A stretch of 64,000 nt of DNA from Deltaproteobacteria bacterium (GCA_021780495.1 JAJXYO010000026.1:62001-126000), one strand, 5' to 3'. Positions 16,554 through 51,018 are shown, counted from the first letter of the stretch. The notes: generated by a model from the sequence alone, not told the origin. Program-made: numbers and translations.

Positions 16554-16607
16554 AAGAGGTGTTCGGAATGCCGGATCATATTCGACACGAGCAAGGAGGG
16601 AATACCC

Positions 16608-19982: not shown

Positions 19983-20045
19983 CATCTCCATGGACTGTCA
20001 GGCATTGAAGGCTCAGAGGTGGCTTCGGTCATCTGGAGGTGAAGC

Positions 20046-23000: not shown

Positions 23001-24857
23001 TCCTGGTCACTGGTCAGCGGCTCGCTGCCGAGTGGCCTGACGCTCGACAGCTCGACCGGATTAATCAGCGGAACGCCCACGACGATCGGTACCTCCAGCT
23101 TCACGGTACAGGCAAGTGATGCCGCTACTCCACAGCAGGTCGCCACTAAGGCCTTGATCATTACCGTTGCTGTACAGGCCAGTTTCAGCATATGGCCCTC
23201 GGCTCTTCCTGTAATAGCCGATTCCGGACCGGACAGCGCCGTGGAGTTGGGAGTCAAGTTCCGCTCCGATTCTAACGGATCCGTCACCGGCATCCGTTTC
23301 TACAAGGCGAGCGCCAACAGCGGCACCCACGTCGGCAACCTCTGGTCGGCCAGCGGTACCCGTCTCGCCACGGCCACGTTTGCTGGCGAAAGCGGCTCCG
23401 GGTGGCAGCAGGTCATGTTTGCGACCCCCGTGCCGATAACCGCCAACACGGTCTATGTAGCCTCCTACCACACCAACACCGGCCACTACAGCTGCGACCA
23501 GAATTACTTCAATGGTGAAGGTGCCGACAACCCGCCGCTGCATGCCCTTGCGGCAGGTGTCTCGGGTGTCAACGGCGTGTATGCCTACGGCTCTGCCAGC
23601 AGCTACCCCGGCTTGGGGTGGAATAGTTCCAACTACTGGGTCGATGTGGTTGTCAGCACTGCCGTGGCCCCGCCCGTAACGCTTTCATCCATCGCGGTGA
23701 CTCCGGCCAGCCAGACGATCGTGACCGGAGCAACGCAGCAATTCATCGCCACCGGAACCTATTCCGATGGCAGTACGCAGAATATAACCAACGTGGTGAC
23801 CTGGGCTTCATCGAACGCGAATGTAGCCACAATCAACAGCACCGGCCTCGTCACGGCCAGAGGTGCAGGCGGCAGCACCATCTCGGCGACTTCCGGCGAA
23901 ACCAGCGGCAGCACAAGCCTGACCGTGCAGGCGGCTCCTCTGGCGATCACGACAGCGTCGCTGCCAGGCGGTACGCTGGGTGTCGCATATTCGGCCACGC
24001 TGGCGGGCGGTGGCGGAACACCGCCGTACTCCTGGTCACTGGTCAGCGGCTCGCTGCCGAGTGGCCTGACGCTCGACAGTTCGTCCGGATTAATCAGCGG
24101 AACGCCCGAGACTGGCGGTACCTCCAGCTTCACGGTTCAGGCAAGCGATACCGGCACTCCCCAACAGACCGCCACCAGGGCACTGAATATTGCAATTAAT
24201 ACACAACCAACTCCGTCAGCGCCGATTCTCGATGTAACCGTAACAACAAAACAATCTGCCGGGAGTCGCACGATCAGTTCACCACAATTCAGTACTGCCA
24301 AAACAAACGAATTGCTGGTTGCCTTTATTGCATCGGACGGTCCCGTCACAGGTGCTTCGCAGAGTATAAGTTCTGTTGCCGGAGGTGGGCTGACCTGGAC
24401 AAGGCGTGCCCGAGCCAACGCCCAGGCTGGAACAGCTGAAATCTGGCAGGCTATGGCAACGAATATAGCGAGAAATGTGACTGTTACAGCAACCAGATCG
24501 GCCGGCTCCTATCAGGGGATGATAACGGTGGCCGCCTTTCAGGGTGCCAGTCTGGTTGTGAACGGGACTGCCGCGATTACCAGTGCCGCCAGCGGCGCGC
24601 CATCGGTCTTGCTGACAACAACGAGGGCCAATTCGCTGGTTTGGGCAGTGGGCAATGATTGGGACAATGCCATCACTCGTACGGTCGGTGCTTCTCAGAC
24701 GAAACTGAGCGAATTCCTGGCCCCCGCTGCAGATACGTTCTGGGTGCAGTACCTTACTGCACCGGTTTCCGCAGCTGGTACTACTACGACTATTTCTTGC
24801 ACCGCGCCAACTAACGATCGCTGGAATCTGGCAGCCATCGAAATAGTTCCGCAATGA
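20046..24857 (+). CDS. Secreted GH30-like glycoside hydrolase with Ig and DUF4082 modules
   Basis: A 1603-residue protein with signal peptide (ends near FSAGA). Residues about 28-455 are a clan GH-A, GH30-like catalytic region: [13 protein letters not shown] at the start, E182 in [10 protein letters not shown] as probable acid/base, E281 in FYMTEITTP as probable nucleophile, then a beta side domain. Next: two Ig-like domains (457-650), an unassigned beta-rich region (650-860), Big_2-like (866-950), putative Ig He_PIG-like (955-1045), DUF4082 (1047-1205), then near-copies of the Big_2/He_PIG pair (1212-1385) and a C-terminal region (1389-1603) resembling 650-860. It would hydrolyse a polysaccharide outside the cell, perhaps the one made here. 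GGAGGTG before ATG 20046 is strong. Confidence 0.85.
22652..23124 (+). repeat. Direct repeat, copy 1 (Big_2 + He_PIG module)
   Basis: About 473 bases nearly identical to 23681-24153 at an offset of 1029 bases, inside the GH30-like gene. Only scattered single-base differences are seen, pointing to recent duplication or gene conversion. Confidence 0.85.
23681..24153 (+). repeat. Direct repeat, copy 2 (Big_2 + He_PIG module)
   Basis: Second copy of the 22652-23124 module. The single DUF4082 domain lies between the copies. Confidence 0.85.
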
Positions 24858-37226: not shown

Positions 37227-37363
37227 TTCCTTGATAATGTTGAGGAAATGCGGAAATATGATCCAACCGGTCATGCTCTTGATAAAAATGCAATGTTTTG
37301 TGACGTGAAGCACATCCCCTGGAATGGTTTTGGAGGATAGTTTATTTACAAATCTGTCAAACA

Positions 37364-37453
37364 TAGGGGAATCGATAATACTAAACCACTTGTGAAAGTG
37401 GGGCGGAAAGCCTACTGGGTCTCACTGAGACAGCCGGGTCGCCGAAATCCTGG
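37364..37453 (+). ncRNA. GEMM-I riboswitch, cGAMP-type (GEMM-Ib)
   Basis: The conserved core is present: TAAACC (37382-37387); P2 stem CCACTT/AAGTGG with GTGA tetraloop; GGGGCGGAAAGCC (37399-37411 or so); P3 GTCTC-act-GAGAC; then AGCCGGG and GCCGAAA. Counting back from AAACC, the base equivalent to Vc2 G20 is A, the change reported for cGAMP-sensing GEMM-Ib RNAs. From memory, the core closely matches Geobacter metallireducens cGAMP switches (ATACTAAACC, GGGGCGGAAAGCC, GAGACAGCCGGG). It precedes a secreted protein gene by about 85 bases. Ligand choice is inferred from the base, not tested. Confidence 0.88.
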
Positions 37454-37480
37454 AAAGGGATAAGGTATCCGGCATTTTTT
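37447..37480 (+). terminator. Riboswitch expression platform, weak terminator
   Basis: GGATA (37458-37462) pairs with TATCC (37466-37470), followed after 4 bases by six T. ATCC (37447-37450), next to the aptamer's closing strand, could pair instead with GGAT and block the terminator. Confidence 0.5.
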
Positions 37481-37537
37481 ATCGGGATCTGTTTTAGCGA
37501 TTTAAACCAGTTCGATCAACGAGCAAAGGAGTAATCT

Positions 37538-39613
37538 ATGAAAAAGGGTATCAACATCATTTGTCTCTCGCTGCTAGTGTTACTATGCAAGGGGCCTGCG
37601 TTTGCCAGTGTTGCCCTGCCGTGGCAAACGACCTACAATTGCGCCGATTGGACTCAAACCGTCAACCCGAGCTCTGACCCTGTATGCGATGGATTAACCC
37701 ATATGCTCGATGTTGGTCCGCCTTCTTTAACCGAGCAAATAACATCAACAGCAAATAATCCGAATGGAGCCGGAGGAAAGGGCCAAAGGCACTGGATGCA
37801 GGGCCAGGGGGGCACGTGTACACAAGTTGATGGCAACTCGGGAGGGACCAGAATCGATTTCAATTCGAGTGTAAATGAAATATGGGTCAGGTTTTATCTC
37901 AAATTTCAACCAGGCTTCACGTGGACTAATTATCAAGGCTATAAGCTGCTCTATTTCAACCACGATGGCTTCTCTAATTTCAACTATTTCCAGATAGGTG
38001 AAAACGGAAGCGACGGAAGCCTGGATTACTATACCCAATTTGGCGATCAGAGCCATTATTCCGCCAGTGTAGGGTATGGAACGTTGTATGGGTCGCCGGC
38101 ATCCGGGGCGTGGCATAGTATCGAAGTCCACATAAAAAGCGAAACTTCATCCGGCGCCAAAGATGGCATTTTGCAGATGTGGGTGGACGGTGTTCTAAAA
38201 GCCAATTTTAACAATGTGAATCACGGCTTTAAATCGAACAATTGGAGCATATCGGGGTTTGTCATAGGTTCTAATATTAAATGTATATCCGGGACAACCC
38301 CCCAGTATTCAGATTATGATGATATCTATGTCACCTCGACACTCCCCGCCAATAAGGATGCAAGCGGCAACAGCATGATCGGGCCGATCGGTTGGAGCGG
38401 CGTCACCGGCGGAACTGCCGACACGACAGCCCCTACGACTCCTGCCAATCTTTCAGCAGCAGTGAGTTCTTCCAGCCAGATTAATCTGTCGTGGAACGCT
38501 TCAACCGATAACGTTGGAGTGACCGGATACAAAATATATCGTGGCGGCATCTATCAGACGACGGTAACCGGCACTACCTATTCGGATACAGGGTTGACGG
38601 CGTCGACCCAATATATCTATGAAGTCTCGGCAATTGACGCCGCAGGTAACGAGTCGGGTAAGTCGTCACCCGCCAGCACAACGACATCAGCTGCCCCCAG
38701 CCCCATCACACTGCCACCGGTCACACCGCCAGCCAGTACCGGTACAGTGCTGTTTTCCGAAAACTTTGAATCCAGCAATTTCGCTGCTAATGGCTGGTAT
38801 GACGTGACTAACTTTGTAAGGAGCAGTTCGGAGTACGAGCAAGGTGCGTATTCAGCACAGTTTCTGTTCAATTCAGGAGCAATAACTCCCACATCGGGCG
38901 GGTCAATCCGGCATCTGTTCACACCGACCGATACGGTATATCTAAGCTACTGGCGGAAGTATGACTCTAACTGGAAGGAACAGCAGGGTAATTTGCACCA
39001 CGAGATATACCTTTTGACCAACAAGGACGGCGCTTATACCAATCTGGCGTTTACCCATTTAACGACCTATTCCGAGACCTGGGGTACGTACAACGCCACA
39101 GCAAACGTCAAGCCTGAATTTTACTTCCAGGATGGCGCAAACATCGACCAGACCAAAATTAACACAGACCTGACGAATGTGACTGAAGCGAGAGGCGCAA
39201 ACGGGTGCAACGGCGTTGTGGAGACAGATCCAACGATTAGCACGACATGCTACAATTCAGGCAGTGGAACGTATTGGAACGGCAAATGGATCAACAACGT
39301 CCCCGCATCAATCCCAATGGGTAAGTGGCACCATGTGGAGATGTATGTGAAGCTGAACTCGGTCACCAACAACAAGGCAAATGCCGATGGCACTGCCATC
39401 ATGTGGGTTGATGGCGTAAAACAAATCGAGAAATACAACCTTTTGTTGAGAACCGCTCAATACCCGGACATGCAGTTCAACCAATTGGTGGTAGGGCCGT
39501 TCATGGCCAATGGTTCGCCACAGACGCAGAGTCTGTACCTGGATAATCTGGAAGTGCGGAATGGAATGCCGCCTACCTTGGCCGCCCCTGCGAATCTAAA
39601 GGCTATTCCATAG
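37538..39613 (+). CDS. Secreted protein: two lectin/lyase-like jelly-roll domains around an Fn3 domain
   Basis: A 691-residue protein with a clear signal peptide (IICLSLLVLLC to AFAS). Residues about 25-270 form a beta-sandwich domain with GAWHSIEVHIKS and DGILQMWVDGVL near 195-220; residues 300-385 are fibronectin type III (PANLSAAVSSSSQINLSWN, then YIYEVSAIDAAGNES). Residues 405-680 are a second sandwich with GKWHHVEMYVKL and TAIMWVDGVKQ. The WHxxE-MWVDG pattern is seen in LamG- and polysaccharide-lyase-like folds, so it probably binds or cleaves a glycan outside the cell. AAAGGAG about 9 bases ahead of the ATG is strong. Expression should follow the cGAMP-type riboswitch. Confidence 0.82.
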   Translation: MKKGINIICLSLLVLLCKGPAFASVALPWQTTYNCADWTQTVNPSSDPVCDGLTHMLDVGPPSLTEQITSTANNPNGAGGKGQRHWMQGQGGTCTQVDGNSGGTRIDFNSSVNEIWVRFYLKFQPGFTWTNYQGYKLLYFNHDGFSNFNYFQIGENGSDGSLDYYTQFGDQSHYSASVGYGTLYGSPASGAWHSIEVHIKSETSSGAKDGILQMWVDGVLKANFNNVNHGFKSNNWSISGFVIGSNIKCISGTTPQYSDYDDIYVTSTLPANKDASGNSMIGPIGWSGVTGGTADTTAPTTPANLSAAVSSSSQINLSWNASTDNVGVTGYKIYRGGIYQTTVTGTTYSDTGLTASTQYIYEVSAIDAAGNESGKSSPASTTTSAAPSPITLPPVTPPASTGTVLFSENFESSNFAANGWYDVTNFVRSSSEYEQGAYSAQFLFNSGAITPTSGGSIRHLFTPTDTVYLSYWRKYDSNWKEQQGNLHHEIYLLTNKDGAYTNLAFTHLTTYSETWGTYNATANVKPEFYFQDGANIDQTKINTDLTNVTEARGANGCNGVVETDPTISTTCYNSGSGTYWNGKWINNVPASIPMGKWHHVEMYVKLNSVTNNKANADGTAIMWVDGVKQIEKYNLLLRTAQYPDMQFNQLVVGPFMANGSPQTQSLYLDNLEVRNGMPPTLAAPANLKAIP

Positions 39614-39670
39614 CTCATACGGTCTATGCCGGGTGCTTCCGGAGATCAGAACAAGAGCCGTACCAAAGTC

Positions 39671-39705
39671 ACAGCCCTCAGTCGATACGATTGAGGGCTG
39701 TTTTT
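39671..39705 (+). terminator. Intrinsic terminator
   Basis: ACAGCCCTCA (39671-39680) pairs over 10 bp with TGAGGGCTGT (39692-39701), and five T follow from 39701. It ends the riboswitch-controlled gene. Confidence 0.9.
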
Positions 39706-39950
39706 GTCTGCTTCGACGAAAGAGGAAGGGCATGGTGTCCGATTGTCAAGGTTAGGAATATAAAGAGCGGCCGCCCTGCTCATAAATTAACCGAGGAGAA
39801 ATAATTAACAGTATTTTCAGTGTGGTTCGATGCAGGCTTTCAGGTCCGCTTCCTGTCTCGGGCACTGTTACGTTAACATCCCGCCAGTAAGGAAATGATG
39901 GCTTGCATTACTAACTAACCGTTATCGCCCGTGTTATTAATTTTAGTTGC

Positions 39951-39966
39951 TGGCACAATTATTGTT
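39951..39966 (+). promoter_or_regulatory. Probable sigma-54 promoter, -12 element degenerate
   Basis: TGGCAC-AATTA-TTGTT: the -24 half is perfect and the -12 half is TTGT rather than TTGC, with the 10-base gap kept. A start would fall near 39978, about 100 bases ahead of the glycosyltransferase gene. The remainder of 39706-39950 shows no gene. Confidence 0.45.
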
Positions 39967-40003
39967 TATGATTTCATACGGCCAGACCCGCCGACAGCGT
40001 GGA

Positions 40004-40054
40004 TTGCTTGCGAGATAAGCCTTGGTTTGGGCACCGAGCTGTATCCGCAAGCAA
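40004..40054 (+). ncRNA. Structured leader of unknown type
   Basis: TTGCTTGCG (40004-40012) pairs perfectly with CGCAAGCAA (40046-40054). Inside it CTTGGT (40021-40026) can pair with ACCGAG (40033-40038), one G-T included. No T run follows and it matches no riboswitch class I know. It lies 24 bases before the glycosyltransferase start, so it could control translation. Confidence 0.4.
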
Positions 40055-40078
40055 ATACTTCGTGATTAAGGTTTATTT

Positions 40079-41041
40079 ATGAAGAACGGTATATGGCTTA
40101 CCTGGGAGAATCAGATCAGAAATAAATCCATGTCCTCCCTGCTGGGAGCCGATTTATACGTTTTTTCGTACGAAGGTAATCGTGTCATACGATATATTTA
40201 TTGCATCATCAAGACAGTCACTATTCTTTGTAAAGCAAAGCCGCGATTTGTATTTGCTCAAAACCCATCGATACTTCTTATCTATTTGTTGATAATATTT
40301 AAAGCATTATCAAGGTACAAAGTCATAAGTGATGCTCATTATGTTGGCATCAAATCATTCAGCGGGAACAAAACATACCAGTTATTATTGGATGTATGCA
40401 ACACTATGGTTGATTTGGTGATAGTTACGAATAGCGAACACCAAAAACATGTTGCAAGTATTGGAGGTAAAGCTGTTGTATGCGAGGATCCTCTTCCTGA
40501 TATCAATAAATACTGCGTCAACGAAATAGATCAAAACAAGTCGGTGTATTATATCTGCTCTTTCGATGTTGATGAGCCTTATAGAATAGCCTTTGATGCC
40601 GCTCGGCTACTCAGTGAAGACAACTATCGATTTTATGTCACGGGTAATTACAAAAGGGCAAGGATAAATCCTGCGGAGTACGATCACATCAAGTTCCTGG
40701 GATATGTACCCACGAGTGAATATTACAATAATCTGTATAGAAGCAGTGTGGTACTTGATCTGACGAACAATGAGAACTGCCTTGTTTGTGGGGCGTATGA
40801 AGCCATGGTGGCTGAAAAACCACTTGTAACCTCCAATACGGCCAGCTTGAAAGGCTTCTTTACAAAAGGAACCGTGTTTACCAACCACAATGCAATAGAT
40901 ATTGCAGAGGCGATAAAGCGTGCGTATCAAAACCGGAATCTTTTAAAGTCGGAGATCAAAGGTTGGAAAGAGGATGTCTACTGCCGGCAAAATGAAAACA
41001 AAGTAACCATACTCAGTGCATTAGGAATATGTGAATCCTGA
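40079..41041 (+). CDS. GT4-like glycosyltransferase, low-GC
   Basis: A 320-residue protein with a GT-B-like layout: an N-terminal domain with AKPRFVFAQNPSILLIYLL near residue 55 and VISDAHYVG near 82, and a C-terminal part with YFYVTGNYKR-like strand, IKFLGYVPTSEYYNNL near 205 and CLVCGAYEAMVAEKPLVTS near 240, the donor-binding region. It is probably a mannosyl/glucosyl-type transferase; donor unknown. Its codons favour A/T far more than those of the neighbours, which suggests a different origin. AAGG ahead of ATG 40079 is a modest ribosome site. The asparagine synthetase gene follows by 34 bases. Confidence 0.75.
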   Translation: MKNGIWLTWENQIRNKSMSSLLGADLYVFSYEGNRVIRYIYCIIKTVTILCKAKPRFVFAQNPSILLIYLLIIFKALSRYKVISDAHYVGIKSFSGNKTYQLLLDVCNTMVDLVIVTNSEHQKHVASIGGKAVVCEDPLPDINKYCVNEIDQNKSVYYICSFDVDEPYRIAFDAARLLSEDNYRFYVTGNYKRARINPAEYDHIKFLGYVPTSEYYNNLYRSSVVLDLTNNENCLVCGAYEAMVAEKPLVTSNTASLKGFFTKGTVFTNHNAIDIAEAIKRAYQNRNLLKSEIKGWKEDVYCRQNENKVTILSALGICES

Positions 41042-41075
41042 TAAATAACTGTTTCAATACGATTTGAGGCACTAC

Positions 41076-42971
41076 ATGTGTGGAATTTACGGAATAGCCG
41101 CCCGGGATGTCGATCGCAATTTCCTTGAAAATGCCACCAATACCCTGGCTCATCGCGGACCCGACGCCGCCGGCTATTACCTGGATGACCATATTGGACT
41201 CGGGCATCGCCGTTTGAGTATTATCGACCTATCGGGCAGTGATCAACCGATCTTCAACGAAGATCGCTCGAAATGCATCGTCTTCAATGGTGAGATATAC
41301 AACTACACCGGTCTGCGTAACCGTCTCCTCGGCCTGGGACACAGCTTTGCCACCAATGGGGATACGGAGACGATTCTGCATGCCTATGAAGAATGGGGCG
41401 AGGCATGCGTCGAGCACCTCAGCGGCATGTTTGCCTTTGCCATCTGGGATTCAACTGAGCGGGTCCTGTTTCTCGCCCGCGACCGTCTCGGGATCAAGCC
41501 TCTCTTTTACGGGTCGTACAAGCATGGTTTCTGCTTTGCGTCGGAAATGAAGGCGATCCTGGCGGATGAACAGTTTCCGCGGGGAATTGATGATGCCGCG
41601 CTCGCCAGTTACTTCATGCTTTCGTACATTCCGGGCGAAGGGACCATTTACCCGAACATTCGCAAGCTTCTCCCGGGGCACACCCTGACCTGGCGCGACA
41701 GCAGCTACAGCACACGGAAGTATTGGGATCTTGACTTTGTCCCGGATCAGGGGAAAAGCGAAGAGTATTTCATCCGGGGGGCAATGGATCTTCTCAGCGA
41801 AGCCGTGGGCAGCCACATGGTGAGTGAGGTGCCGCTGGGTGCATTTCTGAGCGGAGGACTTGATTCGAGTGCGATCGTTGCACTGATGAGCAAAAGCTCC
41901 GAGAACCCGGTTAATACGTTCTGCATGGGCTTTGGCGGTGATGTGGGCGGCTATCTTGACGAGCGGCCATACGCCCGGCAGGTCGCTGAACGGTATGCCA
42001 CGCGCCATCAGGAATACGAGGTGATACCCAGCATCGCAGGACTGGTAGAAACCATTGTCAGGGCTTTCGACGAACCGTGTGCCGATGATTCGGTGATTCC
42101 TTCGTATTTCGTCTGCAAGGTTGCCCGAGAAAACGTGACAGTGGCACTGTCCGGTTTGGGCGGTGACGAAGCCTTCGCCGGATACGAAAGGTATCTCGGT
42201 TTTGCACTGAGCGGCTGGCTTCGGCGGTTCCCGGCCGCGATCCTTACGGGGGTGCTGCAACCTGCGGTTGAAAAACTTCCCGAGAGAAGCGACGGTCACT
42301 ACACGGTTAACCACATGAAGCGCTTTGTACGTTCGGCCGTCTTGCCGCCCGATGAATGTTACCTCGGTTTTCTCCATAAAATGAAACCAAACATCCGCAC
42401 CATTTTTTTTGCCAACCCTGAACACTTCGACCCGTATTACGTATCCTGCCGGGATCTTGTGCTGGGACATTTCAATTCGGGCAGCGTTTCCGGGAACGCC
42501 AATTCTCTCAATCGGGCTCTTTATTGTGATATCAAAACTTACCTGCCGGAGGACATCCTCTGCGTCACCGACCGGATGAGCATGCAACACGGTCTTGAGG
42601 TGCGGGTTCCCTTTCTGGATCACAGATTTCTCGAATTTTGCGCCACCATACCGGCGGAAATGAAGCTTCGATTCATGCAAAAGAAGTATCTGATGAAAAA
42701 AGCCGTTCGCACTCTGCTGCCCAAGGAGGTTATCTCGCATCGCAAACAGGGCTTTGTGGGGCCGATGACCCGCTGGCTGAAGAACGATCTGAAATCGTTT
42801 GTGATTGAGACGTTGTCCGAAGAAAACCTGCGCAAGCACAACCTGTTGAACCGTGGCACGGTCCGGACAATTCTTGAGGAACATTTTTCAGGGCGGGAGA
42901 TTCATGACACGTTGATATGGTCAATGGTCATATTTCAGACCTGGTACAACATCTATCTCGACCGGCGATAG
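41076..42971 (+). CDS. asnB: Asparagine synthetase (glutamine-hydrolysing), exosortase-locus type
   Basis: A 631-residue amidotransferase. Cys2 after the initiator Met (MCGIYGIA) is the glutaminase nucleophile, which fixes the start at ATG 41076, not the in-frame TTG 41064. The N-terminal domain (about 1-210) has RGPDAAGYY and NGEIYNY. The C-terminal synthetase domain has the ATP pyrophosphatase loop SGGLDSSAIVA near 268 and GLGGDEAFAGYERYL near 368. The length and gene context fit the XrtA-associated subgroup, which is thought to amidate uronic-acid or other carboxyl groups of exopolysaccharide rather than make asparagine; that role is inferred. Confidence 0.88.
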   Translation: MCGIYGIAARDVDRNFLENATNTLAHRGPDAAGYYLDDHIGLGHRRLSIIDLSGSDQPIFNEDRSKCIVFNGEIYNYTGLRNRLLGLGHSFATNGDTETILHAYEEWGEACVEHLSGMFAFAIWDSTERVLFLARDRLGIKPLFYGSYKHGFCFASEMKAILADEQFPRGIDDAALASYFMLSYIPGEGTIYPNIRKLLPGHTLTWRDSSYSTRKYWDLDFVPDQGKSEEYFIRGAMDLLSEAVGSHMVSEVPLGAFLSGGLDSSAIVALMSKSSENPVNTFCMGFGGDVGGYLDERPYARQVAERYATRHQEYEVIPSIAGLVETIVRAFDEPCADDSVIPSYFVCKVARENVTVALSGLGGDEAFAGYERYLGFALSGWLRRFPAAILTGVLQPAVEKLPERSDGHYTVNHMKRFVRSAVLPPDECYLGFLHKMKPNIRTIFFANPEHFDPYYVSCRDLVLGHFNSGSVSGNANSLNRALYCDIKTYLPEDILCVTDRMSMQHGLEVRVPFLDHRFLEFCATIPAEMKLRFMQKKYLMKKAVRTLLPKEVISHRKQGFVGPMTRWLKNDLKSFVIETLSEENLRKHNLLNRGTVRTILEEHFSGREIHDTLIWSMVIFQTWYNIYLDRR

Positions 42972-42982
42972 GAGAAACCAGT

Positions 42983-44104
42983 ATGGAATCAGTATATCTG
43001 CTCTTTTTATTCCTGACTCTCTATCCGTATGTTTTCTACCCGCTGCTGGTGGTTGTATGGTCCAAGCGATTGGGTAAAATCTGGAAGCAAGAGCATGTAA
43101 CCCCCCGGGTTTCAATAGTCATATCTGTATTTAACGAAGAGGGGGTGATACGGGAAAAGATCCAGAATGCCCTGTCTCTTGAATACCCCAAAGATTTATT
43201 GGAAATCGTGGTCGTTTCTGACGGCTCCAGCGACCGGACCAATCACATCGTTGCCTCGATAACCGATCCAAGGCTCGTGCTTCGCGCCTATCCGCAAAGA
43301 AACGGCAAGACAGCCTGTCTGAATCGGGTCATTCCTGATGCGAAGGGTGAGATACTGGTATTTACCGATGCCAATTCCATGTTCCCCCGCGACACCATCC
43401 TGAAGCTCGCGAGGAGTTTCTCCGACAGCCGGATCGGCTTGGTAACAGGATGGACAAAGTATCGGAAGGCTGGCGGCGATGAGGACACAACGGGACTGTA
43501 TGCACGTTTGGAAAAGGTTATCAAGTACGGCGAAAGCCTTATTTCTTCATGTGTCGGTGCGGACGGCGCGGTCTTTGCCATGAGGAAGGCCCTGTATCGG
43601 CCGCTGAAGGAGTGCGACATCAACGATTTTGTGATCCCTTTGAACGTTATCGGTCAGGGTAAGAGGGTCGTTCTCGATCCGGAGGTGTACTGCACGGAAA
43701 AACCTTCGGAAGGGGAAGTGAAGGAGTATCGCCGCCAGGTGCGCATAACCAACCGGTCTCTGGGCGCGATCTGGCGAAATAGAGAGTTCTTAAACCCTCT
43801 GCGTTATGGAGTGTTTGCCTTTTTCCTGTTTTCGCACAAGGTTGTGCGGTTCCTGGTTCCATTTTTCTTTGTGTGGCTGTTCTGCGCTGGGTTGATCCTC
43901 TCCAGCGAGTCGGTTGTCTATGCCGGCTTGGTTGTCGCCCAGGCTGTTTTCATCGTGGTAGGGATTTTCGGAATACTTAAGTGTTCCGATGGGCGGGCAG
44001 TACAGTTATGCTCATTTGTCCTCTTGACCATTTACGCCCAATTGATTGGTTGGGTGCGATGGGCCACCGGCAAATCCGATGTGATATGGCAACCGGAACG
44101 CTAA
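42983..44104 (+). CDS. Membrane-bound family 2 glycosyltransferase
   Basis: A 373-residue processive-type GT2. One N-terminal span (SVYLLFLFLTLYPYVFYPL) precedes the catalytic domain with VSIVISVFNEE, VVVSDGSSDRT near 80, FTDANS near 128 as the metal site, and GADGAVFAM near 195; RQVRITNRSLGAIWRN near 255 corresponds to the (Q/R)xxRW acceptor motif. About three spans follow to the end. It probably extends or starts the polysaccharide at the membrane. TAGGAGAAACC ahead of ATG 42983 is a strong site; the longer frame lies inside asnB. Confidence 0.88.
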   Translation: MESVYLLFLFLTLYPYVFYPLLVVVWSKRLGKIWKQEHVTPRVSIVISVFNEEGVIREKIQNALSLEYPKDLLEIVVVSDGSSDRTNHIVASITDPRLVLRAYPQRNGKTACLNRVIPDAKGEILVFTDANSMFPRDTILKLARSFSDSRIGLVTGWTKYRKAGGDEDTTGLYARLEKVIKYGESLISSCVGADGAVFAMRKALYRPLKECDINDFVIPLNVIGQGKRVVLDPEVYCTEKPSEGEVKEYRRQVRITNRSLGAIWRNREFLNPLRYGVFAFFLFSHKVVRFLVPFFFVWLFCAGLILSSESVVYAGLVVAQAVFIVVGIFGILKCSDGRAVQLCSFVLLTIYAQLIGWVRWATGKSDVIWQPER

Positions 44105-44129
44105 CCGGCTCATCACACGGGATGCCTGT

Positions 44130-45146
44130 TCATCGGACGGTTGGTCGCGGCTCCAAGCTTTGTTGGTGTCCCGGAGACCGCCACGACTGAAGGTGCCACA
44201 GCCATCTGCCGACAGCCCGTTCGGCCCTTCTGAGAGCCCAGTGTCTGGAGCCGATATTCTTCTTGAGTTTAATGAAATAGCCGTACGGTTTTCCGTACAG
44301 CTCTACTTCGTTTTCACCGGACCCTTCCTTCTCCATAACTCCCAGGTGTTTCCAGGGCTGCCACTCGCGTGCAAGCTCTTCCAGTTGTTGCTGCGACAAT
44401 TCCTCTTTATGCAATCTGATTCCTTTATTCCGGAGTTTGGGAGAGTCTACTTCTTTCAGGTGCAGATAGTTGCTGACCGAGGCGACATCGCTGTCTGTGA
44501 GTCGCACCGGGAAATAGGGGACACAGGCGCCGCAACGATAACAGTACCGCTCCCTCTGCTCTCTAAAGGCCTCAGGATCCTTGTCCCACCAGCCCCGTTC
44601 CACCGGATGCCCACCCGGCCCCTCAAACAAAACATCCATGGCGGCTGCTATTTCGCAAAAAAAGGCGCCCTTTGGATTGACTGAGGCGGACCATTTCATG
44701 TTGACCCAGCAATTATCCACCAGTTGCCTGACCAGGTTCCGATCTTCAATAATGTCACTGATACTGAGCAACATCGGATGATGTTTCTGGGTTGAATCGT
44801 TATGGTTGTTGAAGTGGATGTTTCCACCGAAGGTTTTTCGGATAACCTGCCGGTAGGTGTCCCAGTTGTATCCGGAGGTCCAGAGATACCTCTTTTCCGG
44901 TGGAAGCATCTGTTTCATCATACGGCAGATTTCCATGAAACCCGGATGCTTCAGCGGCTCCCCACCCATGATTCCGATTACTCCAGGAAAATCGCGCAGT
45001 GAATCTATGGCTTTTTCCACCTGATCCAGATCCATGAAATACGTGTTCCGATAATGTCCTACAAAGCGTGAGCAGTTGGTGCATTCACGCTCGCAAGAAT
45101 TGGTAACCTCTATCTGGATAACACTCTTATCACGTATGGCAAACAT
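44130..45146 (-). CDS. Radical SAM protein of unknown substrate
   Basis: A 338-residue enzyme. IEVTNSCERECTNCSRFVG gives the Cys-x3-Cys-x2-Cys [4Fe-4S] motif at about residues 18-25, and IMGGEPLKHPGF near 58 is the SAM-binding GGEP. Near 200, CYRCGACVPYFP supplies further Cys residues, possibly for an auxiliary cluster or Zn. No RiPP precursor or carrier is seen next to it. It converges on the GT2 gene (26-base gap) and is flanked upstream by a long gap. In polysaccharide loci such proteins may modify a sugar, but the function is not known. GGAGGTCGCC before its ATG is strong. Confidence 0.82.
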   Translation of the reverse strand: MFAIRDKSVIQIEVTNSCERECTNCSRFVGHYRNTYFMDLDQVEKAIDSLRDFPGVIGIMGGEPLKHPGFMEICRMMKQMLPPEKRYLWTSGYNWDTYRQVIRKTFGGNIHFNNHNDSTQKHHPMLLSISDIIEDRNLVRQLVDNCWVNMKWSASVNPKGAFFCEIAAAMDVLFEGPGGHPVERGWWDKDPEAFREQRERYCYRCGACVPYFPVRLTDSDVASVSNYLHLKEVDSPKLRNKGIRLHKEELSQQQLEELAREWQPWKHLGVMEKEGSGENEVELYGKPYGYFIKLKKNIGSRHWALRRAERAVGRWLWHLQSWRSPGHQQSLEPRPTVR

Positions 45147-45543
45147 GGCGACCTCCCTTCAGACGTATTAAACAGAATACTAAACGCATTATATATGCCA
45201 ACGACTATGCCTTAATAATTAGTGTGTTAGAAGCCATTGTTGATTAATGGCAATGTTATATAAAAGTTGGGTTTGCGGGACGAGGTGGAAATAAAGGTAA
45301 AATAATCAGTAAGATAAGAGACGTGTTAAAAAAATTATGTAGTTATGTTTTTTTACGGAATAGTTGAGCCGATCCTTCACACGTCAAGTCGAGCAACTTT
45401 TGCTTCAGCCGAGTACACCAAGTGATATTTTATTTTTATGTGCGCCGGATCACATAATCCGCTGATATTTGCCGAACGTACGTCACTGTAAGTTCATTGT
45501 TAATTCGATTTCACAAAGTTTTAACGAGAATGCTTGCTGTCCG
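45147..45543. other. AT-rich intergenic gap
   Basis: A divergent spacer between the radical SAM gene and the riboswitch gene. It probably carries the radical SAM promoter, but I see no convincing motif and no coding frame. Confidence 0.45.
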
Positions 45544-45557
45544 GTGATGCGCATCAC
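45544..45557. promoter_or_regulatory. CRP/FNR-like palindrome, copy 1
   Basis: GTGATGCGCATCAC is a perfect 14-base palindrome of the GTGA-N6-TCAC form. Its centre is about 43 bases ahead of a start predicted from TAGTTT (45582-45587) as -10, the geometry of class II activation. Confidence 0.5.
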
Positions 45558-45603
45558 ATCAATTAATCTCGTAGTGACCGATAGTTTAAACACAAGAAGC
45601 ACT

Positions 45604-45700
45604 GTTTCCGAAGAGGTAAACCTGGGGTAACCCGGGGGCACAAAGCTACGGGTCCTGAGAAATTTCCGGAAAATCAGGATAGCCGGGTTGGCGAAGGAAC
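45604..45700 (+). ncRNA. GEMM-I riboswitch, c-di-GMP-type, copy 1
   Basis: Core elements: GGTAAACC (45615-45622); P2 CCTGGG/CCCGGG-type stem with GTAA tetraloop; GGGGGCACAAAGC; P3 GGTCCTGA with TCAGGATAGCC; then GGGTTGGCGAAGG. Outer strands GTTTCC (45604-45609) and GGAAC (45696-45700) close P1. The base equivalent to Vc2 G20 is G, which predicts c-di-GMP rather than cGAMP. It lies about 120 bases before the gene start. Confidence 0.9.
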
Positions 45701-45751
45701 AGGTTCCCTGGTAGTTGATTTTGACTACGGCGGACTGAGTTCTTTTTTTTT
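45697..45751 (+). terminator. Riboswitch expression platform with T9 tract, copy 1
   Basis: GAAC (45697-45700) can pair with GTTC (45739-45742) around an inner GTAGT/ACTAC hairpin, directly followed by nine T. GGAA at 45696-45699 belongs to the aptamer's P1 strand, so P1 and this structure exclude each other: ligand binding should favour read-through. Confidence 0.6.
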
Positions 45752-45818
45752 GCTCAAAACGTGTTGAAGAGAGCAATCAAAAAAACAGTTAATCGCCAAC
45801 AAGTAAAGGAGCCCGTTT

Positions 45819-48584
45819 ATGAAATGCCGCATCCTCAGGACACTGATCGTTACGTGTATACTCAGCATGGCACTAGCCACAGTCAGCCAGGCAAGGGACG
45901 TAACCTTGCAGTGGGACCCGGAAACAGACCCGTCTGTCACCGGGTATAAAATCTATTACAATGCCGACTCCGCAGCTCAACCATTCAGCGGGACCGGATC
46001 GCTGCAGGGCGCGTCACCAATCGATGTAAAGACATTGACAAGCTCGGTCGTGAGCGGACTTGATCCCAACCGGTCCTATTATTTCGCCGTTACGGCTTAC
46101 AATAGCTCAGGGGTGGAAAGTTCCTATTCCAACATCGCGAGTGTTGCCGAGGCTGTACCGCCGACCGTAGCGATTACCTCGCCCGCATCAAATGCCACCG
46201 TAAGCGGGCCGGTTTCTGTCAGCGCCAGCGCAACTGATAATGTCGGCGTAACAAAGGTAGAGTTCTATCTGAACGGCATTCTCAAGGCCACGGATACCTC
46301 GACTCCGTACGTGTATGCCTTGAGTACCACTGCGCTTGCTTCCGGGACATACACCCTGATGGCCAAGGCCTATGACGCAGCTGGCAATGTCGGCCAGTCG
46401 AGTGACGTATCTGTTGTGGTTGTCAATGATACCACCGCTCCAACCGTGTCTTTAAGCGCACCTGTCAACAACGCTACCGTAAGCGGGACAACAACCATAT
46501 CAGCCAGCGCCAGTGACAACGTTGGTGTCAGCAAGGTTGAATTCTACAGTAATGGCGCCCTGCTCTACGCAACCAATGTGTCTCCGTTCAGCTACAGCTG
46601 GAATACGACAACAGTCGCTAACGGCAATTACACCCTGATTGCCAAGGCTTATGACAGTACCGGCAATGTGGCCCAGTCTGCAAATGTCCTGGTAACCGTC
46701 AATAATCCGGTGACCGACACGACCGTTCCGGTCGCCTCTGTAACCGCCCCGGCCAATAATGCAACCGTCAGCGGAGCCATCGCCGTTACTGCCGCTGCCT
46801 CGGACAACGTGGGCGTCAGCAAGGTCGAATTCTACGTCAATAGTATTCTTGTCGCCACTGATAGCGCTGCTCCCTACAGCTATAACTGGGATACCGCCTT
46901 GGTGGCAAACGGCAGCAATACCTTGAGAGCCATTGCCTACGATGCGGCCGGCAACATCGGTCAATCAGCAACCGTGACCGTAACGGTGAATAATCCCGTG
47001 CTTCCCGCAAGTCCGGCCAGCTCCATCTGGGCCGCTACGACGGTTCCCTCCGTCGCGGATTCCGGGCCGGACAGCCCGGTGGAGCTCGGCGTAAGATTCC
47101 GCTCCGACAGCGCCGGCTATATCAGCGGCATCCGCTTCTATAAGGCCAGCACAAATACCGGTACCCACGCCGGCAACCTGTGGGACAATACTGGAAAGCT
47201 TCTCGCGACGGCAACATTCACCAATGAGACCGCTTCCGGCTGGCAGCAGGTGAATTTCTCAACGCCGGTGGCAATCGCTGCCAACACGGTCTACGTGGCC
47301 TCCTACCATACCAACTCCGGGCATTATAGTGATACCCAGAACTATTTCTCGGGCACGGGCGTGGACAATCCTCCGCTGCATGCCTTGGCAGACGGGACAT
47401 CGGGTTTCAGCGGCACCTATGCTTACGGTTCCACCAGCAGCTTCCCCAACCAGGGCTGGAACAGCTCCAATTACTGGGTAGATGTGGCGTTCACCGCTGC
47501 CGCACCGGCCGATACTATCGCTCCAACCGTTGTGATCACCTCTCCCGCCGCCAGCGCCACTGTCAGCAGCTCAGTAACAGTCACCGCCACCGCTAGCGAC
47601 AATGTAGGGGTCCGTAAGGTAGAGTTTTATGTCAACGGTGTGCTTCAGGCTACTGATGCTGCTTCCCCGTACACATTTACGTGGAATACAGCCACGCTCG
47701 TAAACGGCTCTTACATCCTTAGCGCAAAGGCTTTTGATGCAGCCGGCAACATGGGGCAATCCGCAGCAATCAGCGTCACAGTCAATAACCCGGTCGTTGA
47801 TATCAGCGTACCGACTGTCTCAGTGACCGCACCGGTTAATGGCGCAACAGTCAGCGGAACCGTTTCCATCACCGCTGCTGCCTCCGACAATGTGGGCATC
47901 AGCAAGGTGGAGTTCTACCTCAATGGTGCTCTTCTGGCTACCGATAACGCTACACCTTATAGCTTTGGCTGGAGTACAACCTCGGTTGTTAATGGGGTCT
48001 ACAGCCTGGTTGTCAAGGCCTATGACGCGGCCGGCAATGTTGGCACAAGCAGCGCCGTTGCACTCACGGTTTCCAACCCTGCGGTGACTCCGGCAACTTC
48101 AGCTACCATCTGGGCTGCTTCAGTTGTCCCATCCGTTGTGGATTCCGGTCCGGATAGCGCCGTGGAGCTGGGGGTTAAAATCAGATCCGATGTGAAGGGG
48201 TATATCACCGGCATTCGCTTCTACAAGGCTTCTACCAATACCGGCTCACACGTTGCCAACCTCTGGAACAGTACCGGAAAGAAACTGGCTACGGCAACCT
48301 TCAACAGCGAAACCACGTCCGGTTGGCAGCAGGTCGATTTTGCAAAACCGGTCGCCATTGCGGCCAATACGGTATATGTCGCTTCTTACCATACCAACGT
48401 AGGTCACTACAGCAGCAGCCTGAATTACTTTGCCACCAGGGGAGTGGATAACGGTCCGCTGCATGCCCTGGCCAACGGAGTGTCCGGGGCTAACTGCGTA
48501 TATGCGTACGGCACATCCAGCTCGTTTCCTACGCAGGGGTATCTGAGCAGCAACTATTGGGTAGATGTAGTTTTTAAACCATGA
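45819..48584 (+). CDS. Secreted Fn3/Ig/DUF4082 repeat protein, longer copy
   Basis: A 921-residue protein with signal peptide (LIVTCILSMALATVSQA). Order: Fn3-like 25-112 (VTLQWDPETDPSVTGYKIYY); three Ig-like repeats 113-393, each with NATVSG and YDAAGNVG/YDSTGNVA; DUF4082 395-560; two more Ig-like repeats 561-755; DUF4082 757-921 as the C-terminus ([12 protein letters not shown]). No catalytic domain is visible, so it is probably a matrix or adhesion protein. AAAGGAG about 8 bases before ATG is strong. Control is through the upstream riboswitch and the CRP-like site. The first 568 codons match the next gene. Confidence 0.85.
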   Translation: MKCRILRTLIVTCILSMALATVSQARDVTLQWDPETDPSVTGYKIYYNADSAAQPFSGTGSLQGASPIDVKTLTSSVVSGLDPNRSYYFAVTAYNSSGVESSYSNIASVAEAVPPTVAITSPASNATVSGPVSVSASATDNVGVTKVEFYLNGILKATDTSTPYVYALSTTALASGTYTLMAKAYDAAGNVGQSSDVSVVVVNDTTAPTVSLSAPVNNATVSGTTTISASASDNVGVSKVEFYSNGALLYATNVSPFSYSWNTTTVANGNYTLIAKAYDSTGNVAQSANVLVTVNNPVTDTTVPVASVTAPANNATVSGAIAVTAAASDNVGVSKVEFYVNSILVATDSAAPYSYNWDTALVANGSNTLRAIAYDAAGNIGQSATVTVTVNNPVLPASPASSIWAATTVPSVADSGPDSPVELGVRFRSDSAGYISGIRFYKASTNTGTHAGNLWDNTGKLLATATFTNETASGWQQVNFSTPVAIAANTVYVASYHTNSGHYSDTQNYFSGTGVDNPPLHALADGTSGFSGTYAYGSTSSFPNQGWNSSNYWVDVAFTAAAPADTIAPTVVITSPAASATVSSSVTVTATASDNVGVRKVEFYVNGVLQATDAASPYTFTWNTATLVNGSYILSAKAFDAAGNMGQSAAISVTVNNPVVDISVPTVSVTAPVNGATVSGTVSITAAASDNVGISKVEFYLNGALLATDNATPYSFGWSTTSVVNGVYSLVVKAYDAAGNVGTSSAVALTVSNPAVTPATSATIWAASVVPSVVDSGPDSAVELGVKIRSDVKGYITGIRFYKASTNTGSHVANLWNSTGKKLATATFNSETTSGWQQVDFAKPVAIAANTVYVASYHTNVGHYSSSLNYFATRGVDNGPLHALANGVSGANCVYAYGTSSSFPTQGYLSSNYWVDVVFKP

Positions 48585-48614
48585 AATACCTATCTATTCT
48601 ATTGTGATTACTTC

Positions 48615-48643
48615 AGCTGCCCTCTGTATTTTAGAGGGCAGCT
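48615..48643 (+). terminator. Hairpin after the longer copy, poor T run
   Basis: AGCTGCCCTCT (48615-48625) pairs perfectly with AGAGGGCAGCT (48633-48643). The bases after it (ATCCGTT) lack a T run, so termination may be weak or Rho-linked. Confidence 0.6.
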
Positions 48644-48763
48644 ATCCGTTATGAGGACCTGATGATTCCCGTGCACGCTCCCTCAGGGTTCTCAGGCTCT
48701 GGAGGAGCGGAAACCCTATCTGGAGCAGCATTAGCAATAAATAATGGAACGGGTTGCGGTTCG

Positions 48764-48777
48764 GTGATGCACATCAC
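48764..48777. promoter_or_regulatory. CRP/FNR-like palindrome, copy 2
   Basis: GTGATGCACATCAC, the second copy of 45544-45557, with one central change; the GTGA and TCAC half sites are intact. Confidence 0.45.
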
Positions 48778-48823
48778 ATTAATTAATGTCGTATTGACCG
48801 ATAGTTTAAACACAAGAAGCACT

Positions 48824-48920
48824 GTTTCCGAAGAGGTAAACCTGGGGTAACCCGGGGGCACAAAGCTACGGGTCCTGAGAAATTTCCGGAAAATCAGGAT
48901 AGCCGGGTTGGCGAAGGAAC
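48824..48920 (+). ncRNA. GEMM-I riboswitch, c-di-GMP-type, copy 2
   Basis: Sequence-identical to the RNA at 45604-45700, including G at the Vc2 G20 position and the GTAA tetraloop. Confidence 0.9.
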
Positions 48921-48971
48921 AGGTTCCCTGGTAGTTGATTTTGACTACGGCGGACTGAGTTCTTTTTTTTT
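48917..48971 (+). terminator. Riboswitch expression platform with T9 tract, copy 2
   Basis: Identical to 45697-45751: GAAC/GTTC outer pairing, GTAGT/ACTAC inner hairpin and nine T at 48963-48971. Confidence 0.6.
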
Positions 48972-49038
48972 GCTCAAAACGTGTTGAAGAGAGCAATCAA
49001 AAAAACAGTTAATCGCCAACAAGTAAAGGAGCCCGTTT

Positions 49039-51018
49039 ATGAAATGCCGCATCCTCAGGACACTGATCGTTACGTGTATACTCAGCATGGCACTAGCCAC
49101 AGTCAGCCAGGCAAGGGACGTAACCTTGCAGTGGGACCCGGAAACAGACCCGTCTGTCACCGGGTATAAAATCTATTACAATGCCGACTCCGCAGCTCAA
49201 CCATTCAGCGGGACCGGATCGCTGCAGGGCGCGTCACCAATCGATGTAAAGACATTGACAAGCTCGGTCGTGAGCGGACTTGATCCCAACCGGTCCTATT
49301 ATTTCGCCGTTACGGCTTACAATAGCTCAGGGGTGGAAAGTTCCTATTCCAACATCGCGAGTGTTGCCGAGGCTGTACCGCCGACCGTAGCGATTACCTC
49401 GCCCGCATCAAATGCCACCGTAAGCGGGCCGGTTTCTGTCAGCGCCAGCGCAACTGATAATGTCGGCGTAACAAAGGTAGAGTTCTATCTGAACGGCATT
49501 CTCAAGGCCACGGATACCTCGACTCCGTACGTGTATGCCTTGAGTACCACTGCGCTTGCTTCCGGGACATACACCCTGATGGCCAAGGCCTATGACGCAG
49601 CTGGCAATGTCGGCCAGTCGAGTGACGTATCTGTTGTGGTTGTCAATGATACCACCGCTCCAACCGTGTCTTTAAGCGCACCTGTCAACAACGCTACCGT
49701 AAGCGGGACAACAACCATATCAGCCAGCGCCAGTGACAACGTTGGTGTCAGCAAGGTTGAATTCTACAGTAATGGCGCCCTGCTCTACGCAACCAATGTG
49801 TCTCCGTTCAGCTACAGCTGGAATACGACAACAGTCGCTAACGGCAATTACACCCTGATTGCCAAGGCTTATGACAGTACCGGCAATGTGGCCCAGTCTG
49901 CAAATGTCCTGGTAACCGTCAATAATCCGGTGACCGACACGACCGTTCCGGTCGCCTCTGTAACCGCCCCGGCCAATAATGCAACCGTCAGCGGAGCCAT
50001 CGCCGTTACTGCCGCTGCCTCGGACAACGTGGGCGTCAGCAAGGTCGAATTCTACGTCAATAGTATTCTTGTCGCCACTGATAGCGCTGCTCCCTACAGC
50101 TATAACTGGGATACCGCCTTGGTGGCAAACGGCAGCAATACCTTGAGAGCCATTGCCTACGATGCGGCCGGCAACATCGGTCAATCAGCAACCGTGACCG
50201 TAACGGTGAATAATCCCGTGCTTCCCGCAAGTCCGGCCAGCTCCATCTGGGCCGCTACGACGGTTCCCTCCGTCGCGGATTCCGGGCCGGACAGCCCGGT
50301 GGAGCTCGGCGTAAGATTCCGCTCCGACAGCGCCGGCTATATCAGCGGCATCCGCTTCTATAAGGCCAGCACAAATACCGGTACCCACGCCGGCAACCTG
50401 TGGGACAATACTGGAAAGCTTCTCGCGACGGCAACATTCACCAATGAGACCGCTTCCGGCTGGCAGCAGGTGAATTTCTCAACGCCGGTGGCAATCGCTG
50501 CCAACACGGTCTACGTGGCCTCCTACCATACCAACTCCGGGCATTATAGTGATACCCAGAACTATTTCTCGGGCACGGGCGTGGACAATCCTCCGCTGCA
50601 TGCCTTGGCAGACGGGACATCGGGTTTCAGCGGCACCTATGCTTACGGTTCCACCAGCAGCTTCCCCAACCAGGGCTGGAACAGCTCCAATTACTGGGTA
50701 GATGTGGCGTTCACCGCTGCCGCACCGGCCGATACTATCGCTCCGTCAGTTCACATTACCTCTCCACTTGCCAATTCAACCATCAAGATCTCGGGAACGG
50801 TATATTTCTCCGTGCTTGCCACTGATAATGTCGCTGTCAGCAAGGTGGAATATTATGTGGACGGCGTATTGAATAATACACTGACCGTGGCGCCGTTCAG
50901 TTACAGCGTTCCTGCAATAATTGTACAAAACGGTACCTACAATAGGGTGTATGCCAAAGCCTACGATGCAGCCGGCAATGTCACCACGTCAGCTACTATC
51001 AGGTTTAAGATCAGATAA
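49039..51018 (+). CDS. Secreted Fn3/Ig/DUF4082 repeat protein, shorter copy
   Basis: A 659-residue protein, the same as the preceding gene through residue 568 (signal peptide, Fn3, three Ig-like repeats, one DUF4082). It then ends with a single diverged Ig-like repeat (VHITSPLANSTIKISGTVY to TIRFKIR). It therefore lacks the C-terminal DUF4082 module. AAAGGAG precedes the ATG. The gene has its own copy of the promoter end, CRP-like site and riboswitch, and a good terminator follows, so it is a separate unit. Likely an extracellular matrix protein. Confidence 0.85.
   Translation: MKCRILRTLIVTCILSMALATVSQARDVTLQWDPETDPSVTGYKIYYNADSAAQPFSGTGSLQGASPIDVKTLTSSVVSGLDPNRSYYFAVTAYNSSGVESSYSNIASVAEAVPPTVAITSPASNATVSGPVSVSASATDNVGVTKVEFYLNGILKATDTSTPYVYALSTTALASGTYTLMAKAYDAAGNVGQSSDVSVVVVNDTTAPTVSLSAPVNNATVSGTTTISASASDNVGVSKVEFYSNGALLYATNVSPFSYSWNTTTVANGNYTLIAKAYDSTGNVAQSANVLVTVNNPVTDTTVPVASVTAPANNATVSGAIAVTAAASDNVGVSKVEFYVNSILVATDSAAPYSYNWDTALVANGSNTLRAIAYDAAGNIGQSATVTVTVNNPVLPASPASSIWAATTVPSVADSGPDSPVELGVRFRSDSAGYISGIRFYKASTNTGTHAGNLWDNTGKLLATATFTNETASGWQQVNFSTPVAIAANTVYVASYHTNSGHYSDTQNYFSGTGVDNPPLHALADGTSGFSGTYAYGSTSSFPNQGWNSSNYWVDVAFTAAAPADTIAPSVHITSPLANSTIKISGTVYFSVLATDNVAVSKVEYYVDGVLNNTLTVAPFSYSVPAIIVQNGTYNRVYAKAYDAAGNVTTSATIRFKIR

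Follow-up and report, generated by a model that had tools for sequence, protein, structure and literature searches.

The window analyzed here, a 64,000-nucleotide stretch of a deltaproteobacterial genome (GCA_021780495.1 JAJXYO010000026.1:62001-126000; contig C5:62001-126000), carries three GEMM-I riboswitch RNAs of two kinds, each in the leader of a gene for a secreted protein and each preceded by the same predicted promoter module. The organism is a Geobacter-like bacterium with a 3.68 Mb draft genome in 68 contigs. We consider it probable, with some reserve, that the three genes form one regulon of the XrtA/PEP-CTERM exopolysaccharide locus under two layers of control, namely a CRP-family promoter followed by GEMM-I switches of the ON type. 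In the first layer, a CRP-family activator would bind GTGA-N6-TCAC in the class II position and start transcription of all three genes; in the second, ligand-bound GEMM-I RNA would hold the paired regions P1 and P3 together and prevent a terminator. The switch at 37370 would respond to cyclic AMP-GMP (cGAMP), and those at 45605 and 48825 would be a conserved GEMM-I variant with G20, A47 and a purine in place of C92. The variant would most likely still be a switch for cyclic di-GMP (c-di-GMP), relying on G20, A47 and its intact scaffold and making a changed contact at position 92.

GEMM-I RNAs of the window and their genes

Aptamers were matched by cmscan to RF01051, for which the gathering score is 35 bits. 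Core bases are numbered as in Vc2, where G20, A47 and C92 correspond to A14, A41 and C75 of the pilM switch and to model positions 11, 38 and 83 of RF01051. A preliminary description of this stretch had reported three GEMM-I RNAs with A, G and G at the Vc2 G20 position, and these were recovered (A at 37380, G at 45615 and 48835), with starts that had been placed roughly right but were off by 6 nt for the first RNA and by 1 nt for the other two.

The first aptamer (37370..37446, plus strand, 44.3 bits) has the core A20 (37380), A47 and C92 (37442) and keeps 11 of the 11 ligand-contact residues of PDB 4YAZ, which are G8, A11, A12, U13, A14, C15, A41, A42, G74, C75 and C76 (PMC7288161). The RF01051 fold, A20 and the complete set of contacts support its assignment to the cGAMP type (GEMM-Ib). 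As calculated by folding, a terminator stem at 37433..37473 takes up the aptamer 3' strand including the C92 equivalent and is followed by AUUUUUU. The gene behind it (37538..39613, plus strand) encodes a secreted protein of 691 aa with Polysacc_lyase (PF14099) and fn3 domains, whose PDB relatives were fn3-domain proteins only.

The cGAMP type proposed for this RNA in the preliminary description is also consistent with the synthases that the genome encodes. A GacA-type cyclase was found with REC and GGDEF domains, Ser at the S348 position and the motif GGDEY; its best PDB match was 6d9m (238 bits; next 152), which by sequence and name is the G. metallireducens-type GacA GGDEF domain. A second GGDEF protein (L030, G000:C11:3484-3954) has Thr at the Hypr position (GHFAGT...GGDEF) and is a candidate for another cGAMP-capable cyclase. 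The remaining intact GGDEF domains of the genome have the canonical Asp, and canonical diguanylate cyclases are encoded as well.

The two other aptamers (45605..45695 and 48825..48915, plus strand) are identical, score 60.0 bits each and have the core G20 (45615 and 48835), A47 and G92 (45691 in the first copy). The terminator of the 45605 switch (45693..45746) has a 5' arm, GAAGGAAC, that overlaps the 3' strand of P1 (GGAACAG, 45696-45702), with a U-run next. From terminators overlapping the aptamer 3' strands, all three switches are predicted to be of the ON type, as in G. sulfurreducens, in which all GEMM-Ib genes go down on gacA deletion (PMC6456294). The genes that follow, both on the plus strand, encode secreted proteins of 921 aa (45819..48584; fn3, five Big_7 and two DUF4082 domains) and 659 aa (49039..51018; an fn3/Big_7/DUF4082 copy with a different C-terminus).

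Both leaders lie within a tandem duplication of 1,991 nt on the plus strand (45534..47524 and 48754-50744) that is 99.7% identical. The six mismatches all fall in the first 41 nt, 5' of the RNA in the operator and promoter region (45538-45574 against 48758-48794), and the following 1,950 nt, which take in the RNA and the initial 1.7 kb of the reading frame in each copy, are identical; this distribution looks like a recent duplication or gene conversion. Because identical RNAs inside such a duplication represent one switch copied, they should not be counted as two independent cases, as had been done initially. The three secreted proteins had likewise been described as related, which is correct for the products of 45819 and 49039 (100% identity over the first ~560 aa, then divergent) and not for that of 37538, which shares with them a generic fn3/Ig domain and is not otherwise homologous.

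The whole genome contains 14 GEMM-I RNAs, comprising seven with A20 and the C-U/G-G P2 base typical of Geobacter cGAMP switches, one with A20 in a c-di-GMP-like scaffold, and six with G20. No further GEMM RNA was found near 45605 at E<=5. The same genome has a second mixed neighbor pair (L051, G000:C39:88500-93908), in which an A20 switch lies 5' of the gene for a probable lipoprotein of 307 aa, and a G20 switch 1.5 kb further on lies 5' of the gene for a 771-aa secreted protein. Elsewhere (L007/L008, G000:C40:3244-3520), two A20 switches stand in tandem, 200 nt apart, 5' of a secreted lipoprotein-like gene. In the window, positions 10770-24857 encode three very large secreted proteins (1927, 1124 and 1603 aa) with DUF4082 and Ig-like repeats and without a GEMM leader.

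A predicted shared promoter module and its candidate activator

All three genes share the module GTGA-N6-[T/G]CAC, 22 nt, GATAGT, with all elements on the plus strand. The A20 aptamer is preceded at a distance of 56 nt by the CRP-type operator GTGACGTGAAGCAC (37300..37313), which matches at 7/8 positions, with its -10-like GATAGT at 37336..37341. The two variant aptamers are each preceded at 47 nt by operators that match at 8/8 positions, GTGATGCGCATCAC (45544..45557; GATAGT at 45580..45585) and GTGATGCACATCAC (48764..48777; GATAGT at 48800..48805). GATAGT matches at 6/6 positions in all three and begins 22 nt after the operator, and GTGA-N6-TCAC with 22 nt to the -10 element is the geometry of class II CRP activation.

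The full module occurred at exactly three sites in 102 kb of the contig (C5:44,000-146,000), each directly 5' of a switch, and in the whole genome a looser pattern matched the two perfect ones and a few chance-like sites. The operator was absent from other leaders of this genome. In relatives, an operator 40-60 nt 5' of the aptamer was found in 33 of 51 leaders of the two gene families, whichever aptamer they carried, against 8 of 95 for leaders outside these families (Fisher p=1e-12), and the spacing to the -10 element was likewise 22 nt.

The genome has five CRP-type helix-turn-helix loci. One of them, at C5:52111-52803 (L200 8112-8804, minus strand), lies 9-10 kb upstream of the window and encodes a cNMP-binding and HTH_Crp protein with the recognition helix TRETVSR. 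E. coli CRP reads GTGA via Arg, Glu and Arg of its recognition helix, and TRETVSR retains these residues. The gene, placed where the exopolysaccharide locus begins, adjoins a REC-PAS-GGDEF gene (L200 8831-10330; the pair at C5:52111-54314, minus strand) and is divergent from the XrtA/PEP-CTERM exopolysaccharide operon (TIGR03013, 03027, 03007, 03018 and 03015); positions 188-1108 of the window correspond to TIGR03006. By comparing coordinates by hand, we found that in 17 relatives an orthologue of the CRP-family gene lies no more than 6 kb from an fn3/Big_7 gene or its leader. Helix and linkage suggest that this protein is the likely activator of the three operators.

Position 92 and exchange of switches among relatives

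The RNAs at 45605 and 48825 had been called c-di-GMP switches on the basis of G20. They have the fold, G20 and A47 of canonical c-di-GMP-I RNAs, and at model position 83 they have G in place of C92, the Watson-Crick partner of the ligand. The equivalent C75 of the pilM switch has this role, and G20 is described in substance as a selectivity factor and not as a hard filter (PMC9262584). A Vc2 double mutant, G20A/C92U, has an affinity for c-di-GMP of 4,900 nM compared with 0.011 nM for the wild type (PMC9049102). Since the C92 partner is G and G20 is no hard filter, a c-di-GMP assignment does not follow from G20, and the rule that G20 means c-di-GMP is unsafe for these two RNAs.

The variant is not confined to this genome. 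When 84,980 species genomes were scanned with a pattern for the type with G at position 92, 14 stretches matched, from Geobacter sp. OR-1, Pelotalea chapellei, metagenome-assembled genomes (MAGs) labeled Geobacteraceae, Desulfuromonadaceae or 'Deltaproteobacteria', one 'Proteobacteria' MAG and two Nitrospirae MAGs, and 12 of them were directly 5' of an fn3/Big_7-like reading frame. In 23 aligned leaders of the variant type, G20 and A47 were invariant, position 92 was G in 17 and A, U and C in two each, and columns 16-17 of the junction J1/2 were variable. P1, P2 and P3 were intact (96.7% of cells paired, 94.2% in shuffles), with five pairs changed on both sides compared with 1.0 in shuffles and compensatory changes in P2 and P3.

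Position 92 is relaxed or changed where J1/2 is short. Of the order's G20 RNAs, those with a J1/2 of the usual length (n=28) had C in 24 and U in 4 at model position 83, whereas those with a J1/2 shorter by one nucleotide (n=49) had C in 25, U in 15, G in 7 and A in 2 (non-C in 4/28 against 24/49, p=0.003). Purines at position 92 occurred only in the fn3/Big_7-associated type. Separately, a G20/A47/U92 core is common among the GEMM-I RNAs of Geobacterales (19 of the 77 whose J1/2 class is clear; for example L044 722, L040 9322 and 486, L045 10373, L124, L130, L132, L144, L164, L169 and L171, among others); U92 could form a wobble with G or a regular pair with A, so the ligand of these cores is also unsure.

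A register shift, by which C84 instead of position 83 would meet the ligand in short-J1/2 RNAs, was rejected as a default: both G6-C84 and C5-G85 are paired throughout the 23 aligned leaders, and G6-C84 pairs in 49/49 short-J1/2 RNAs (one as G-U). A role of G92 in the expression platform was also rejected, as the terminator arm begins 3' of it. The window's G20 RNAs are not members of RF03168 (61.3, below the cut-off of 65.9, and lacking U20 and U92), and two relatives in G027 reached 66.7 against that model. Geobacter RNAs with A47 scored as GGC, so the Rfam GGC and UAU labels were dropped as class markers and core bases were used instead. Rfam has GGC and UAU core variants, and no description of a G/A/G core of GEMM-I was found in the literature searched.

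Mixed pairs also occur in relatives. A polysaccharide-lyase-like gene with an A20 switch, neighboring an fn3/Big_7 gene with the G20 variant, recurs in P. chapellei (G010) and in the relatives G017 and G053. The fn3/Big_7 orthologues of five others (G007, G008, G009, G015 and G020) have A20 switches instead, with the same operator 5' of them. The gene tree, in which several inner forks were weak, places the window's G-type group inside a set of A20 genes, and it takes six changes to account for the three switch classes (minimum two; mean of shuffles 11.9). As judged from these sequences, switch modules are exchanged between orthologous genes, which carry A20, G-type or both in tandem.

Tandem leaders with the A20 switch first and a terminator for each switch were found in G053 (twice), OR-1 and G048; in that of G004, a clear terminator follows the A20 switch, and the second switch is followed by a stem resembling a terminator. 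The operator is 5' of both switches in G004 and G048, and a serial AND gate is therefore predicted; in G053 and OR-1 it lies between the two switches, and a promoter linked to it would therefore read the G-type switch only. A20-then-G20 leaders before one gene were noted at L097 (6986+7195 and 10662+10866), L178 (1731/1594/1397), L108 (644+833), L107 (5268+5067), L036 (228+486), L037, L038 and L039, most with a terminator after each aptamer.

Competing explanations and known systems

The explanation originally put forward, that 37370 senses cGAMP, that 45605 and 48825 are ordinary c-di-GMP switches and that surface proteins are swapped according to the dinucleotide present, is possible, but we regard it as doubtful. 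G20 and A47 are present, P1, P2, P3, the GNRA-type loop and the terminator are intact, and both kinds of synthase are encoded in the genome; near relatives of the variant have C at position 92 (L107, L149), and the ancestral core was therefore probably canonical. The equivalent of C92 is nevertheless G, and is kept as G in 17 of the 23 leaders, and a common promoter argues for co-expression as much as for alternation. The predicted shared promoter weakens the case for a coat swap set purely by the dinucleotide: initiation at the three genes is probably set by a single activator, with the riboswitches then gating read-through. Doubtful to a greater degree is the idea that position 92 is unimportant in short-J1/2 RNAs, or that the duplicated switch is decaying: the excess of non-C bases in short-J1/2 RNAs speaks for it, but G is non-random among leaders in which the J1/2 columns vary, and the intact P1 (G6-C84 and C5-G85 in 23/23) and the kept terminators make decay unlikely.

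A different ligand for G20/A47/purine-92 RNAs, such as another cyclic dinucleotide or cGAMP in a flipped orientation, seems unlikely. The altered residue is a direct ligand contact, as shown for C75 of pilM (PMC9262584), the variant base is conserved together with one gene family, the genes behind the two A92 RNAs group as a pair with 98% support, and Rfam has already split off the core variants GGC and UAU; yet position 92 takes each of the four bases in leaders of a single gene family, a pattern that fits relaxation more readily, and no known synthase or ligand suggests itself. Its extension, in which a distinct variant recognizing neither c-di-GMP nor cGAMP would be joined with cGAMP switches behind one CRP-family-controlled promoter (in tandem in relatives) and would combine two nucleotide signals on exopolysaccharide-associated proteins, is speculative and more unlikely still. 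It is very improbable that the assembly turned a single locus into the 45605/48825 pair: such an artefact could explain perfect identity over 1,950 nt in a draft of 68 contigs, but the copies differ by the six mismatches in the operator region, in their upstream flanks and in the protein C-termini.

Several observations also weigh against the two-layer regulon that we favor. The replacement of C92 by G takes away the Watson-Crick partner of the second base of the ligand (for comparison, see the affinity of Vc2 G20A/C92U above). Orthologous genes bear A20 switches in other species, so which ligand is assigned may not be decisive for function. The activator is a candidate assigned from linkage and helix residues only, its gene is tens of kb from the switch genes in this genome, and the operator 5' of 37370 matches at 7/8 positions, not 8/8. 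The ligand reading of the locus is only half secure, and the more interesting result is that a conserved variant of GEMM-I, in which one ligand contact is replaced, is combined with cGAMP-type switches behind one predicted CRP-type promoter.

Ligand class taken from G20 alone can mislead for GEMM-I RNAs, as the second contact base in Geobacterales is often not C and is a purine in one conserved subgroup. Orthologous genes with the same predicted promoter and cGAMP-type, variant or tandem switches provide a natural series on changing or combining cyclic-dinucleotide inputs. Additionally, the CRP-family regulator, its GGDEF neighbor and the mixed GEMM switches would tie exopolysaccharide-associated proteins to the balance of cGAMP and c-di-GMP, which controls extracellular electron transfer in Geobacter.

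The 37370 switch resembles the Geobacter GEMM-Ib switches of pilM and pgcA in A20, the C-U/G-G base of P2, A47, C92, the 11 contacts and an ON-type terminator whose stem includes the C92 equivalent; unlike these, which control a pilus or cytochrome gene, it stands behind a predicted CRP-type promoter and would control a secreted protein that resembles a polysaccharide lyase. The switches at 45605 and 48825 keep the fold, G20, A47, tetraloop and long-range C35-G82 pair of c-di-GMP-I riboswitches (RF01051, Vc2) and differ in the change of C92 to G and in a J1/2 shorter by one nucleotide. An altered 20/47/92 core is shared as a concept with Rfam c-di-GMP-I-GGC (RF03167, G-G-C) and c-di-GMP-I-UAU (RF03168, U-A-U), but the core here is G-A-G. 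A published riboswitch survey counted tandem c-di-GMP-I doublets, and its logic-gate table is without a cGAMP/c-di-GMP pair. The preliminary description had not been aware of an earlier account of the mixed arrangement, but mixed loci have been published: in a region of Desulfobacca acetoxidans with seven riboswitches, c-di-GMP-type and cGAMP-type GEMM RNAs lie within 7 kb, with ligand preference determined by in-line probing (PMC9481103). Those RNAs occur with adenosylcobalamin riboswitches, whereas the RNAs described here occur in an exopolysaccharide locus with a common CRP-type promoter and the C92 variant, and the new element is the predicted promoter module common to three genes with two kinds of GEMM-I switch.

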